10,087 nucleotides of DNA, taken from an uncultured Prevotella sp. (lineage in GTDB: Bacteria; Bacteroidota; Bacteroidia; Bacteroidales; Bacteroidaceae). Numbering within the stretch: position 1 is the first letter of the stretch; each line of letters opens with the position of its first letter. The notes under the pieces are model-generated. The model was not told the DNA's origin. It worked only from the letters and a program-made list of their open reading frames with translations, and did no database searches. A program made the position numbers and the translations under genes. The DNA is taken from NCBI GenBank assembly GCA_945827565.1, contig CALZNR010000025.1, positions 1 to 10,087 on the forward strand. The letters run 5' to 3'. Below are positions 5,367 through 10,087 of this stretch, piece after piece.

Positions 5367-6824
5367 ATGGTTAATTATCATCTCGTTTCAAAAATCATAG
5401 GCCAGTTGCTCCTGCTTGAGTGCGTCATCATGATGCTCTGCTGGGGGGTATCGGTGGGCTACGGAGAAGACGACAGCATGCCTTTCCTGCTATCGTCTAT
5501 CATTACCACTGGCGGAGGCATACTGTTTAAGTTCTTTGGAAGAAATTCGGGCAACAACATGAGCCGACGCGATGCCTATTTGGTAGTGACTGTGGCATGG
5601 CTCATATTCAGTGCCTTTGGCATGTTGCCCTTCCTGATAGGTGGCTATATTCCCAATGTCACCGATGCCTACTTTGAAACCATGTCAGGTTTCACCACCA
5701 CCGGTGCCACCATCCTTGACGATGTGGAGCATCTGCCCCATGGCATTCTGTTCTGGCGTTCGCTCACACAGTGGATTGGCGGCCTGGGTATCCTGTTTTT
5801 TACCATTGCCATTCTACCTTCTATGGTGGGCGGAAGCATGAAGGTGTTTTCTGCCGAAGTGACAGGGCCATTCAAATCAAAGATGCACCCACGCCTCAGC
5901 ACCAGCGCCAAGTGGCTATGGTCTATCTATCTGGCACTCACCATCGCCTGTATCGCCTGCTATCGTATCGCAGGCATGGAGTGGTTCGATGGTATCAACT
6001 ATGCCATGACCACCACTGCCACAGGCGGTTTTGCCCCCCACAACGACAGTGCTGCCTACTTCATCTCTCCTGCAATAGAGTATATCAGCATCCTGTTCCA
6101 GTTTCTGTCGGGTGTCAACTTTGTGCTACTTTATGCCATGGTGTTCAAGGCTCAGTTTGCCAACCTGTTTCGCAACTCAGAGTTTCGCCTGTACTTGGGG
6201 ATTGTCACCATCTCTACCATCACCATCATGGGCATGCTGATGCACTCGCTCAACTACGATTTGGAGCGCGCCTTCCGCTGCTCCTTGTTTCAGGTGGTGT
6301 CGTTTATCACCACCACAGGCTTGTTTAACGACGATGCCGGTCAGTGGCCTCACCTCACATGGATTATTTTGGGCTGCTGCATGTTCTCTGGAGCATGTGC
6401 CGGTTCCACCAGTGGCGGATTCAAGTGCATCCGCATCACTATGATTCTGAAGGTGTTGCGCAATGAGTTTCGCCACATCCTGCATCCCAGCGCCGTGCTG
6501 CCCGTAAAAATCAACGGCATGGCTGTAGCCCCCTCAAAAATAGGCACCCTGCTGGCTTTTGGCACGGTGTATGTGCTGATGTGCATTATCACATCGAGCA
6601 TTATGATTGCATGGGGAGTGGATCACACCAATGCCATCACCATAGCCTTGAGTTGTGTGAGCAACGTGGGTCCCACGCTGGGCACAGAGATTGGCCCGGT
6701 GATGTCGTGGAGCATACTTCCTGACACGGTGAAATGGATATGCTCTTTCTTGATGCTGATGGGACGTTTGGAGATTATCACCGTACTGATACTCTTCAGC
6801 AGGAGTTATTGGAAGGAGAACTGA
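5367..6824 (+). CDS. trkH: Trk-type potassium channel subunit TrkH
   Basis: Inner-membrane K+ channel/transporter of the Trk/Ktr/HKT superfamily, 485 residues, built of four M1-pore-M2 repeats. All four selectivity-filter segments are visible: TTTGAT (110-115), TTTATGGF (215-222), TTTGLF (315-320) and SNVGPTLG (432-439). The gate-region sequence GSTSGGFKCIRI (346-357) and the C-terminal MGRLEI (465-470) are also typical. The ATG at 5367 gives the normal N-terminus with a first hydrophobic helix at about residues 8-31. It follows trkA by 82 bp without a TAnnTTTG box, so it is probably the third gene of the dxs operon and supplies the channel on which TrkA acts. The stop (6822-6824) lies inside the 3' end of the convergent DUF4435 gene, a 29-bp tail-to-tail overlap, with no terminator hairpin seen between them. 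Confidence 0.97.
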   Translation: MVNYHLVSKIIGQLLLLECVIMMLCWGVSVGYGEDDSMPFLLSSIITTGGGILFKFFGRNSGNNMSRRDAYLVVTVAWLIFSAFGMLPFLIGGYIPNVTDAYFETMSGFTTTGATILDDVEHLPHGILFWRSLTQWIGGLGILFFTIAILPSMVGGSMKVFSAEVTGPFKSKMHPRLSTSAKWLWSIYLALTIACIACYRIAGMEWFDGINYAMTTTATGGFAPHNDSAAYFISPAIEYISILFQFLSGVNFVLLYAMVFKAQFANLFRNSEFRLYLGIVTISTITIMGMLMHSLNYDLERAFRCSLFQVVSFITTTGLFNDDAGQWPHLTWIILGCCMFSGACAGSTSGGFKCIRITMILKVLRNEFRHILHPSAVLPVKINGMAVAPSKIGTLLAFGTVYVLMCIITSSIMIAWGVDHTNAITIALSCVSNVGPTLGTEIGPVMSWSILPDTVKWICSFLMLMGRLEIITVLILFSRSYWKEN

Positions 6825-7833
6825 CCGCTGTATTCTCTTCATCATCCAGCCTGCTCTGTATCAGCGCCCTGATTTGCAAGAACTGCTTGCTATTGGTATA
6901 GCCCTGGTTGCGCTTTATGGCTCTCTTCACATCATCAATACTGTTCTCATAACACGCCATCTCGTTATACATCTGCGTGCGGTGGATTGCCGTGCGGTGA
7001 ATTTCGTTCTCACGCTCCAGGCGCAGTCGATTGCACACCTTGATTACCGTGGGCGTCACCACAGCATCCATGAGATGATGCCCCTGCATGTATAGATAGG
7101 TGGTTTGCGGAGTGACACCCAATTCAAACAACTCTTGCTTCAGGGCATCGTAGGCAGTCTGTGCATGGGGATAGTGGCGCTGCATGAAGAGCACCTTGCG
7201 CTGCACCTTTTGCTGCAAATGAGCCAATGCTAACTGTGGTTTCTGTACATCCAGCCCTCCCAGTTCCACCACCTTGCCATAGTCAGAGAGTGAGAACTCA
7301 CCGTAATGAATAGTGCGATATGCCCACACCGACCACACAAAGAGGGGATAACATATTTCGGAATATTCTTTGAAAAACCTTTCAAAGTCGAAGATACGAT
7401 GATCGTTGAGGGTAACCATCACACAGAGGTCATGCAGTGAGGGAGCATAGCACTGGAAGTTTTCAATGGCATAGACAAAGGTGTGAAACACATAAGGATT
7501 GCCCAGCACCTTACGTGAGGTGGGCGAGGCACCCTGCAACAAGTAGTCATAGTCGGCATCCACGCAGGCTATCATGTCTTTGCCAGCACCGTTATCTACC
7601 ACACTCATCAGTGCCGACTTCTTGCCACGGCCCAATCCCTCTTTTCGTGCGGGTAGCATCACCTCAAAATATCTTTTATCGTTCTCTAAAGCACTGAGCA
7701 CCGTGCGCCAAAAAAACACATCATCATAGCTCTCCACATAAGCCACGATTCTGCGCCTTTGGTCTTTTGCCTTCATGGCATTGGCTGCCTCAAAGTAGCG
7801 ATTGCTGATATTTTCGTATAATTTCTTTGCCAA
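6796..7833 (-). CDS. DUF4435 protein, Toprim-like nuclease candidate (AriB-like)
   Basis: 345-residue protein that I recognise as DUF4435, the Toprim-related family that includes AriB, the effector nuclease of the PARIS anti-phage system. Near the N-terminus is IVAYVESYDDVFFW (29-42) with E34, followed by MIACVDADYDYLL (87-99) with D92, D94 and D96; a glutamate then a DxD is the acidic pattern expected of a Toprim metal site. Further segments are NPYVFHTFVYAIENF (112-126) and TYLYMQGHHLMDAVV (245-259); the C-terminal third is helical and basic. The start is a TTG: an in-frame TGA lies three codons upstream and AGGAGG sits 4 bases before it. The next methionine (residue 20) would discard the YFEAAN segment. 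The partner ATPase gene ends 79 bp upstream on the same strand with no promoter box between. Nuclease activity and tRNA targeting, known for AriB, are only inferred here. Confidence 0.88.
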   Translation of the reverse strand: MAKKLYENISNRYFEAANAMKAKDQRRRIVAYVESYDDVFFWRTVLSALENDKRYFEVMLPARKEGLGRGKKSALMSVVDNGAGKDMIACVDADYDYLLQGASPTSRKVLGNPYVFHTFVYAIENFQCYAPSLHDLCVMVTLNDHRIFDFERFFKEYSEICYPLFVWSVWAYRTIHYGEFSLSDYGKVVELGGLDVQKPQLALAHLQQKVQRKVLFMQRHYPHAQTAYDALKQELFELGVTPQTTYLYMQGHHLMDAVVTPTVIKVCNRLRLERENEIHRTAIHRTQMYNEMACYENSIDDVKRAIKRNQGYTNSKQFLQIRALIQSRLDDEENTAVSSPSNNSC

Positions 7834-7837
7834 AACT

Positions 7838-7843
7838 CCTCCT
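7838..7843 (-). promoter_or_regulatory. Strong Shine-Dalgarno sequence deciding the TTG start of the DUF4435 gene
   Basis: On the minus strand the bases read AGGAGG, part of a longer GAGGAGGAG run, four bases before the TTG at 7833. Other starts in the window lack any such element, so it stands out. Together with the in-frame TGA at 7845-7843 it fixes initiation at the TTG or later. Confidence 0.65.
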
Positions 7844-7912
7844 CAAATTTTCTCGTACTGCCGAACAACAATACGTATATAATGAACACTCTCTGCTGCA
7901 AAGCAGTGCCTT

Positions 7913-8767
7913 TTAGGAGGTGATATCATTCACCTCAGTCACATGATTCATCCATCCGTTCATAATAACAGCGGGCGAATGGGTGGTGAGCACTATCTGC
8001 ACATTGGGATTGAGTTCCATGATCATGTCTATCAGTTGCTGCTGCCAATCAATGTGCAGGCTCACCTCGGGTTCGTCCATGAAAAGCACATAGGGCTTGT
8101 TGTCTTCTATCAGCACAGTAAGCAGTATGGCAAGCATCTGCTTCTCTCCACTGGACAGCTGGTAGCAGGTAATCACCTCACCCAACTGAGTGAAGGCAAT
8201 TTCATTTTGTGTACGTATCAGCCGCTTGCCTGTCTCAGCAAAGAGGCGGTCAATGAGGTCTTGAAACAGTTTTTTGGGAGCCGACACCCGGCCTGCCTGT
8301 TCCGTGGCATCTGCATCTCCCTGTTGCAGTATAGCGATGATACGGTTGCCCATGTTCACCTGATAGTCCAGATATTTGCGCTGCAACTGATACAGTTGCC
8401 AGTCCAATTCTGTGGCCACCGGAGCATCCACTATCTTGTTGACCACATCTCCCTGCATCAGCGGACGGTCAAAACTGCGTATCACGTCATAGCGTATGCG
8501 CCGAGCATCTTCGGGCACCACCTTTATCTTTACTCCCGGCAGAATATTGTCTGAGAGTTCTCCCCCAGGCAACAGGGTTCGCAACACCTTATTCAATATG
8601 GTGCTCTTACCCACCCCGTTGATACCGCTAAGGATGTTCACCTTGGGGTCCAGTTCCCACACTATATGCTTTCGTCCGCTCCAAAGCGAGTCTATCTCTA
8701 TGCGTGAGATATAGTCTGCGTATTTTTGAACCATGAGCTCTGTTTTAGGTTGGATTATTTTCTGCAT
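7913..8767 (-). CDS. AAA family ATPase of ABC/OLD type (AriA-like partner of the DUF4435 protein)
   Basis: Soluble ABC-type ATPase of 284 residues with all motifs intact: Walker A GINGVGKST (48-56), ABC signature LSSGEKQ (204-210), Walker B YVLFMDEPE (226-234) with catalytic E232, D-loop SLHIDWQ (236-242), and switch histidine H263 in TTHSP. This is the pattern of the AAA_15/AAA_21 ATPases in OLD nucleases, AriA and RecF/Rad50 relatives. There are no membrane segments. The region between Walker A and the signature is only about 150 residues, room for a short helical hairpin (about 115-150) but not a long coiled coil. The DUF4435 Toprim gene follows after 79 bp, so an ATPase-sensor/nuclease-effector pair is the natural reading. 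A TATATTTG box lies 12 bp before the ATG at 8767; an alternative ATG at 8734 (MVQKYADYI) is possible and would remove 11 residues. Confidence 0.9.
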   Translation of the reverse strand: MQKIIQPKTELMVQKYADYISRIEIDSLWSGRKHIVWELDPKVNILSGINGVGKSTILNKVLRTLLPGGELSDNILPGVKIKVVPEDARRIRYDVIRSFDRPLMQGDVVNKIVDAPVATELDWQLYQLQRKYLDYQVNMGNRIIAILQQGDADATEQAGRVSAPKKLFQDLIDRLFAETGKRLIRTQNEIAFTQLGEVITCYQLSSGEKQMLAILLTVLIEDNKPYVLFMDEPEVSLHIDWQQQLIDMIMELNPNVQIVLTTHSPAVIMNGWMNHVTEVNDITS

Positions 8768-8779
8768 CTTTGTCTATTG

Positions 8780-8787
8780 CAAATATA
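8780..8787 (-). promoter_or_regulatory. Bacteroidetes -7 box for the ATPase-DUF4435 pair
   Basis: The minus strand reads TATATTTG, matching TAnnTTTG, 12 bases before the ATG at 8767. A leader of about five bases is expected. No convincing -33 TTTG lies 19-21 bp upstream. It is divergent from, and 21 bp away from, the box serving the transporter gene. Confidence 0.6.
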
Positions 8788-9782: not shown

Positions 9783-9857
9783 AAGACAGGAAACGGAAAA
9801 AGAAAAAACGATTCAATGCCATAGGTTCTGCAGATCAGAGCCATAAGACACAAAATG

Positions 9858-9917
9858 AAGGAAGCCAAGATAACCAAACAGGTTGAACCTGTTGTCTTTG
9901 GTTATCTTGGCTTCCTT
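9858..9917. terminator. Long perfect hairpin, probable bidirectional terminator
   Basis: Bases 9858-9878 and 9897-9917 are perfect 21-bp inverted repeats (left arm begins AAGGAAGCC, right arm ends GGCTTCCTT) around an 18-base loop. A second, smaller inverted repeat AACAGGTT/AACCTGTT (9877-9884, 9886-9893) is nested over the loop. ATTTT follows on the plus strand, and CATTTT follows on the minus strand. It lies 75 bp after the transporter stop and 32 bp after the stop of the convergent partial gene, the place for a shared terminator. Confidence 0.85.
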
Positions 9918-9949
9918 ATTTTCTCAAAATTCAATGGACTATCCCGAAT

Positions 9950-10045: not shown

Positions 10046-10087
10046 CTGTCTCTTATACACATCTGACGCTGCCGACGATATGCAGTG
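10046..10087. other. Nextera Read 1 adapter plus i5 index (sequencing artefact)
   Basis: Bases 10046-10078 are the reverse complement of the 33-nt Nextera Read 1 oligonucleotide, starting with the Tn5 mosaic end (10046-10064). Bases 10079-10086 (TATGCAGT) are the reverse complement of ACTGCATA, which I recognise as the S506 i5 barcode, and the final G fits the start of the P5 side. Genomic sequence therefore ends at 10045. Confidence 0.98.

Follow-up and report, generated by a model that had tools for sequence, protein, structure and literature searches.

Introduction

The closest described relative of the gene pair treated here is PARIS (AriA/AriB of E. coli B185; PDB 8ux9 and 8v45-8v49), in which an ABC ATPase adjoins a DUF4435 Toprim protein. 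PARIS responds to anti-restriction proteins such as Ocr, and its AriA is a hexamer. In E. coli its defence requires both ariA and ariB, and deletion of either gene is non-toxic (Rousset et al., PMC9122126). AriB is a tRNase of the Toprim type, for which a two-metal site has been proposed, and its active site resembles that of RNase M5, a Toprim enzyme of rRNA maturation (PMC12409363), which offers a precedent for a housekeeping Toprim RNase. The OLD family nucleases follow the same ABC ATPase plus Toprim logic, fused in one chain. Rousset et al. detect PARIS by general Pfam profiles, the original rule being an AAA_15 or AAA_21 ATPase beside DUF4435 at thresholds of 32, 27 and 27 bits (PMC9122126), and the PARIS ATPase models of DefenseFinder also come from Pfam. 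The literature drawn on consists of PMC11455837, PMC9122126, PMC10924106, PMC9090908 and PMC12409363. The DNA in question, called the window from here on, is a stretch of 10087 bases and an entire contig (G000:C25, CALZNR010000025.1) of an uncultured Prevotella sp., which carries an ATPase and a DUF4435 protein of this kind as neighboring genes. The parts are already known, and what is new is the distribution of the pair, which is core and vertically inherited in the family of the window. The literature searched, by title and start of the abstract (among the papers listed, with subscription papers and preprints outside the selection), holds no description of the pair as core in Bacteroidales, and in the same selection we found no core, vertically inherited relative of AriA/AriB with a short ATPase and an orphan-nuclease clade elsewhere.

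Comparison of the pair with PARIS and its relatives

The two open reading frames of the pair (8767-7913 for the ATPase and 7833-6796 for the DUF4435 protein) lie on the minus strand with 79 bp between them, and their features are as follows.

7913..8767, minus strand: ABC-type ATPase of the short AriA type (PF13304/PF13175), probable ATG start at 8734; from profiles, predicted fold and start comparison
8603..8626, minus strand: Walker A GINGVGKS, residues 48-55 of the 284-aa frame; from sequence
8138..8158, minus strand: ABC signature LSSGEKQ, residues 204-210 (LSSGE 204-208); from sequence
8066..8089, minus strand: Walker B VLFMDEPE with E232, residues 227-234; from sequence
6796..7833, minus strand: predicted DUF4435 / AriB-type Toprim nuclease, 345 aa from TTG; from profiles and predicted fold
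7732..7734, minus strand: Toprim glutamate E34 (YVES), invariant in the compared loci
7618..7626, minus strand: G70-K71-K72 ahead of the third Toprim strand, G70 and K71 invariant
7546..7560, minus strand: Toprim acidic motif D92-A-D94-Y-D96, with D92, D94 and D96 invariant

An earlier note on this DNA had described an ABC ATPase with intact motifs followed on the same strand by a DUF4435 protein bearing a glutamate and a DxD pattern. Profiles and motifs confirm this description, adding D96 to the acidic residues and identifying the E232 of that note as the Walker B glutamate. The ATPase frame matches AAA_21 at 75.3 bits and AAA_15 at 67.4 bits (Pfam cut-offs 27 and 32.1 bits), and the DUF4435 profile (cut-off 27 bits) covers residues 27-271 of the second protein at 168 bits (E 3.9e-49), so that the profile check proposed in the note places the proteins within AAA_15 and DUF4435 and not outside both. 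The three scores also stand above the thresholds of the PARIS detection rule. PADLOC models for AriA (PDLC04164, 193.8 bits, residues 18-283) and AriB (PDLC02983, 200.9 bits) cover most of both proteins. The best PDB match of the predicted ATPase fold is solved AriA, and that of the predicted nuclease fold, found with a second structure aligner, is solved AriB, OLD being a much weaker match; the outcome that would have spoken against the note, lack of a Toprim fold, did not occur. Foldseek gave no significant match for the predicted nuclease fold, and the DUF4435 profile found no relative among PDB sequences, AriB itself being missed by sequence.

The motifs are retained in both proteins. Walker A positions 48, 50, 51, 53 and 54 are invariant where aligned and position 55 is S or T, the stretch D231-E234 of Walker B is invariant among the compared loci, GA replaces SS of the signature in one of 38 representative loci, and the H-loop is intact (H263). 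The nuclease residues E34, D92, D94 and D96 are unchanged in four sets of loci with overlapping genomes (63/63, 38/38, 80/80 and 30/30). Judged only by its spacing from the catalytic glutamate, G70-K71 may correspond to AriB K60/K64. For the ATPase a start at ATG 8734 (codon 12) is probable, giving a product of about 273 aa, because many homologues start one codon further on, and 43 of the 55 named relatives readable at window codon 13 have ATG there. For the DUF4435 gene a TTG start is plausible from the comparison of relatives; 71 of 80 named ones are readable at residue 1, with ATG in 68, GTG in two and TTG in one.

The claim of the earlier note that PARIS uses exactly this pair holds only in part. 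Homology to AriA/AriB is borne out by PADLOC and by the folds, but the ATPase is short and AriB is not detected by the DUF4435 profile. AriA has 464 residues, of which 4-82 and 320-440 align with the window ATPase, and between these halves about 75 profile positions stand against about 238 AriA residues, so a full-size AriA with its long middle region is not what is found here. In contrast to OLD, the window pair consists of two separate reading frames. Other Bacteroidales families have single-gene AriAB fusions of the same two domains, about 515-555 aa long; one of these fusions (L132) matches PADLOC PDLC02982 at 405 bits. The fused form is present in 7/7 genomes of family f18 and 4/4 of family f54 examined (L128, L129, L132, L133, L135-L142), and it looks like a second, separate form which is core in these two small families. 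These fusions have their own DUF4435 clade (ultrafast bootstrap, UFBoot, 100 in both models described below; L148 included), which indicates that they are not simply fused versions of the window pair.

Distribution and inheritance

The sporadic, mobile-element-linked distribution that is usual for PARIS, without being strictly defining, is not shared by the pair. In the genus of the window DUF4435 is present in 97 of 100 genomes, 96 of them with strong matches (G012 has only a weak one, and three have none). In the window's family, f1, it is present in 146 of 151 genomes, with a strong match in 145 of them and in 21 of 22 genera; the family set has at least 90% completeness, the window's own genome excepted. 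The genome G396, the sole one sampled of its genus, carries another type of DUF4435 (L110). In wider samples the domain is present in 61 of 295 genomes of the order-wide survey and in 14 of 296 of the phylum sample, three of the latter belonging to f1. AbiEii, taken as a defence-type control, occurs in 87 of the same 151 f1 genomes, and second DUF4435 matches in at most 16. The orthologous ATPase adjoins DUF4435 in 38 of 39 representative loci from 22 genera, with both genes on the same strand, and so it does in 79 of the 80 named Prevotella loci compared, which are the best-scoring 80 of 583 and no random sample; the DUF4435 frame of the remaining one starts 87 bases from the contig end. The nearest named records to the window pair are Prevotella, and a B. 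finegoldii record shares its EamA-ATPase-DUF4435 order, which makes Bacteroidaceae, as GTDB defines them, the probable identity of f1.

The trees of both genes follow that of dxs. Tree distances in 31 f1 genomes show correlations of r 0.74 (ATPase with Dxs), 0.72 (DUF4435 with Dxs) and 0.81 (ATPase with DUF4435), and none of 999 permutations was as high. Of 28 splits, the ATPase tree has 9 in common with the Dxs tree and the DUF4435 tree 10. The multi-member genera g1, g3 and g187 form clades in both trees, and g2 only in that of the ATPase; g2 is no clade in the Dxs tree either. For the window against the nearest named relative, the ratio of non-synonymous to synonymous substitution (omega) is 0.052 for DUF4435, 0.023 for the ATPase, 0.025 for TrkH, 0.014 for TrkA, 0.038 for Dxs and 0.036 for EamA; this close pair is quoted as distant pairs are saturated (group medians 0.10-0.24). 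The pair is vertically inherited and under purifying selection in f1. The earlier note had offered two possibilities, of which the lineage-conserved pair is borne out by the genus and family surveys, the 38/39 adjacency and the dxs-like trees, while a compact defence or toxin-like mobile module is at odds with the distribution. The synteny survey that it proposed for Bacteroidales shows a pair core in f1 and a domain found in 14 of 296 genomes of the phylum sample.

Searches of mobile elements gave a similar picture for the nuclease. Among 50,697 phage records none matches DUF4435, viral contigs contain a single distant relative (28%), and plasmid records give four matches, namely B. finegoldii, Phocaeicola (48.8%) and two distant ones in Klebsiella (22.6%). 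The B. finegoldii record, with meaB, other chromosome-like genes and the EamA-ATPase-DUF4435 order of the window, probably represents a chromosomal contig. The ATPase alone has distant relatives in 67 plasmid and 8 phage records. With the AriB of L146 as query for a closer PARIS relative, no match was found in phage records and two, both Leptotrichia, in plasmids. One of the Klebsiella records (L242, NZ_CP141665.1, 4416 bp) is a ColRNAI-type plasmid with a distant short ATPase + DUF4435 pair as its main cargo.

A family with the nuclease and mostly without the ATPase

In f103, a family of the same order which we guess to be Muribaculaceae, the two genes have parted. DUF4435 is present in 59 of 60 genomes and in all 16 genera, and an ATPase orthologue in 11 of the 60 (profile, above 150 bits; the best match in the other 49 is 51.4 bits). 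It is adjacent to DUF4435 in six genomes (G539, G540, G543, G550, G551 and G554, the gene of G551 being broken by the contig end) and unlinked in five, at about 51 kb in G545, about 153 kb in G555 and G561, and on another contig in G541 and G567. Among the 49 genomes without the ATPase 48 retain DUF4435, four of these 48 being single-contig (G542, G568, G571, G586). E34, D92, D94 and D96 are kept in 30/30 f103 loci and in 27 orphan loci (at least 95%), and the eight closest pairs of orphan nucleases have an omega of 0.065-0.22. Most f103 genomes thus keep the nuclease alone, which points, at least there, to a role independent of this ATPase. A search for a lost ATPase-binding face, comparing paired and orphan nucleases, gave three columns only (84, 88 and 123), too few to map. 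In the f103 genera opened no neighboring gene is fixed. The unlinked ATPase directly follows the same three genes in three of the four loci opened (L326, L328, L329), which by Pfam matches in L329 are a peptidase S49 (sppA-like), LpxK and PNP_UDP_1; these neighbors suggest no mechanism.

Cellular role or fixed defence

Taking these results together, we lean, tentatively, to the pair being a core, vertically inherited module of the AriA/AriB type that serves the cell instead of acting as a mobile defence. By analogy with AriA the ABC-type ATPase would gate or deliver the nuclease, and by analogy with AriB the nuclease would be metal-dependent and cut structured RNA, either tRNA-like or rRNA-like. 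In the cell the pair would act in RNA maturation, in quality control or in the response to stress, in preference to an antiviral role. Retention of the acidic set points to a metal-dependent RNase gated by the ATPase as the most likely chemistry, and it is the lone nuclease of f103, together with near-universal presence, that makes us lean to a cellular role over a fixed defence.

A number of points weigh against a cellular role. The pair is missing from five of the 151 f1 genomes (G433, G478, G487, G503 and G528), in which the orthologous ATPase is missing too, and it is therefore dispensable. (G487 and G503 are single-contig genomes.) The near-constant adjacency in f1 is as expected for a sensor and its effector, a core distribution is compatible with a fixed defence, DUF4435 has 2-5 times the non-synonymous divergence (dN) of the ATPase and of the flanking genes, and the gene neighbors give no hint of a pathway. 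The orphan nuclease of f103 may, moreover, have changed its function. Finally, trees built from 57 DUF4435 sequences relate f103 only indirectly to the window pair. With LG+F+G4, UFBoot is 100 for the f1 core (13 sequences), 90 for f103 (23) and 87 for the 13 sampled orphans; under a mixture model the support values are 98/98, 24/0 and 94/89, so that the f103 clade is found at 90 in one model and at 24/0 in the other. Seven other pairs (L110, L143, L144, L145, L147, L240 and L242), several of them on long branches, are nearer to f1 than f103 is, with UFBoot 88 under LG+F+G4 and support of 68/87 under the mixture model. In neither tree do f1 and f103 form one clade; a constraint to that effect lowers the log-likelihood by 4.9 units, and the approximately unbiased test does not reject it (p-AU 0.111). 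One fixation and two fixations both fit, and f103 consequently bears on the window pair at one remove. Both trees are compatible with the ATPase having been lost once, before the orphan clade arose.

If a cellular role is correct, catalogues built on AAA_15/AAA_21 + DUF4435 count a core pair as PARIS in most Prevotella/Bacteroides relatives. The pair is probably counted so by defence tools, because it passes the Pfam rule of Rousset et al. A gut survey reports Rst_PARIS in 20% of gut metagenome-assembled genomes, mainly Bacteroidales, and this figure may in part reflect the core pair. A wider proposal, more speculative than the cellular role of the window pair itself, would make the AriB-type Toprim nuclease a housekeeping RNase in the dominant Bacteroidales of the gut, one that is widely and wrongly counted as PARIS and shares a common ancestor with it, an RNase and its ATPase having moved between maintenance and immunity. 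The pair, with a cellular role, would also lend itself to tests of whether an immune-type nuclease can serve a routine function, and the clade with the nuclease and no ATPase is a natural experiment.

The close rival of a cellular role is a lineage-fixed innate anti-phage system, now part of the core genome, in which a PARIS-like ATPase would detect a phage product and release or activate the Toprim RNase, with an arrest of translation. We consider it a serious possibility, although a slightly less probable one than either of the foregoing. It draws on the PADLOC models that cover most of both proteins, on PARIS subunits as the best match for both folds, on the retained catalytic motifs, on an f1 pair that stays adjacent and, in the five genomes named, is lost as a pair, and on sporadic PARIS-like pairs that branch near the core set. 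It accords less well with a near-universal and strongly constrained pair, unlike the second DUF4435 matches of the same genomes, with the nuclease persisting in f103 where the ATPase is lost or unlinked, and with an AriA middle region that is mostly missing. As deletions in E. coli are non-toxic, orphan nucleases alone do not refute PARIS; they rather point to a role beyond the pair. A nuclease acting as a toxin silenced by the ATPase was also considered and dropped, since either deletion in E. coli is non-toxic (PMC9122126).

An OLD-like pair, a split ATPase-Toprim enzyme that would act on DNA during repair or recombination, shares the ABC ATPase plus Toprim logic and is improbable. Least probable of all, and refuted in the main for this locus, is an ordinary horizontally moving PARIS cassette located here by chance, which would explain the PARIS label given by profile tools, the sporadic domain copies in relatives (L145-L148) and on small Klebsiella plasmids, and the plasmid and phage relatives of the ATPase alone, but not the core distribution, the dxs-like trees or the scarcity of DUF4435 in phage, viral and plasmid records.

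Genomic surroundings

The local gene order is dxs-trkA-trkH / DUF4435-ATPase / EamA. The earlier note was right in placing the pair between trkH and a transporter gene: trkH is convergent with DUF4435, with a 29-bp overlap at the 3' end of the latter, and the EamA (DMT) transporter gene is divergent from the ATPase gene. It was equally right that no obvious change in base composition marks the pair, whose G+C content of 0.46-0.50 is within the range of the window (0.44-0.56). A divergent EamA gene stands beside the ATPase in 14 of 38 representative loci (seven genera) and 22 of 76 named loci, and in 48 of 73 named loci a convergent trkH follows within 4.5 kb downstream, which indicates that the genomic place is only partly conserved. 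One further feature lies upstream of the pair.

8780..8787, minus strand: TAnnTTTG element 5' of the ATPase gene, a candidate promoter element from sequence

We take this element to be a putative Bacteroides-type -7 box. After the EamA gene lies an inverted repeat (9853-9922) whose 26-nt arms are 92% complementary; a T-rich run comes next, and the whole resembles an intrinsic terminator. Each end of the window carries a 19-base transposon end (26-44 and 10046-10064) within a stretch of Nextera adapter sequence (about 11-44 and 10046-10087). These terminal sequences are untrimmed adapters, and the first gene of the window, which is 4'-phosphopantetheinyl transferase-like with weak Pfam matches, is cut short by them.

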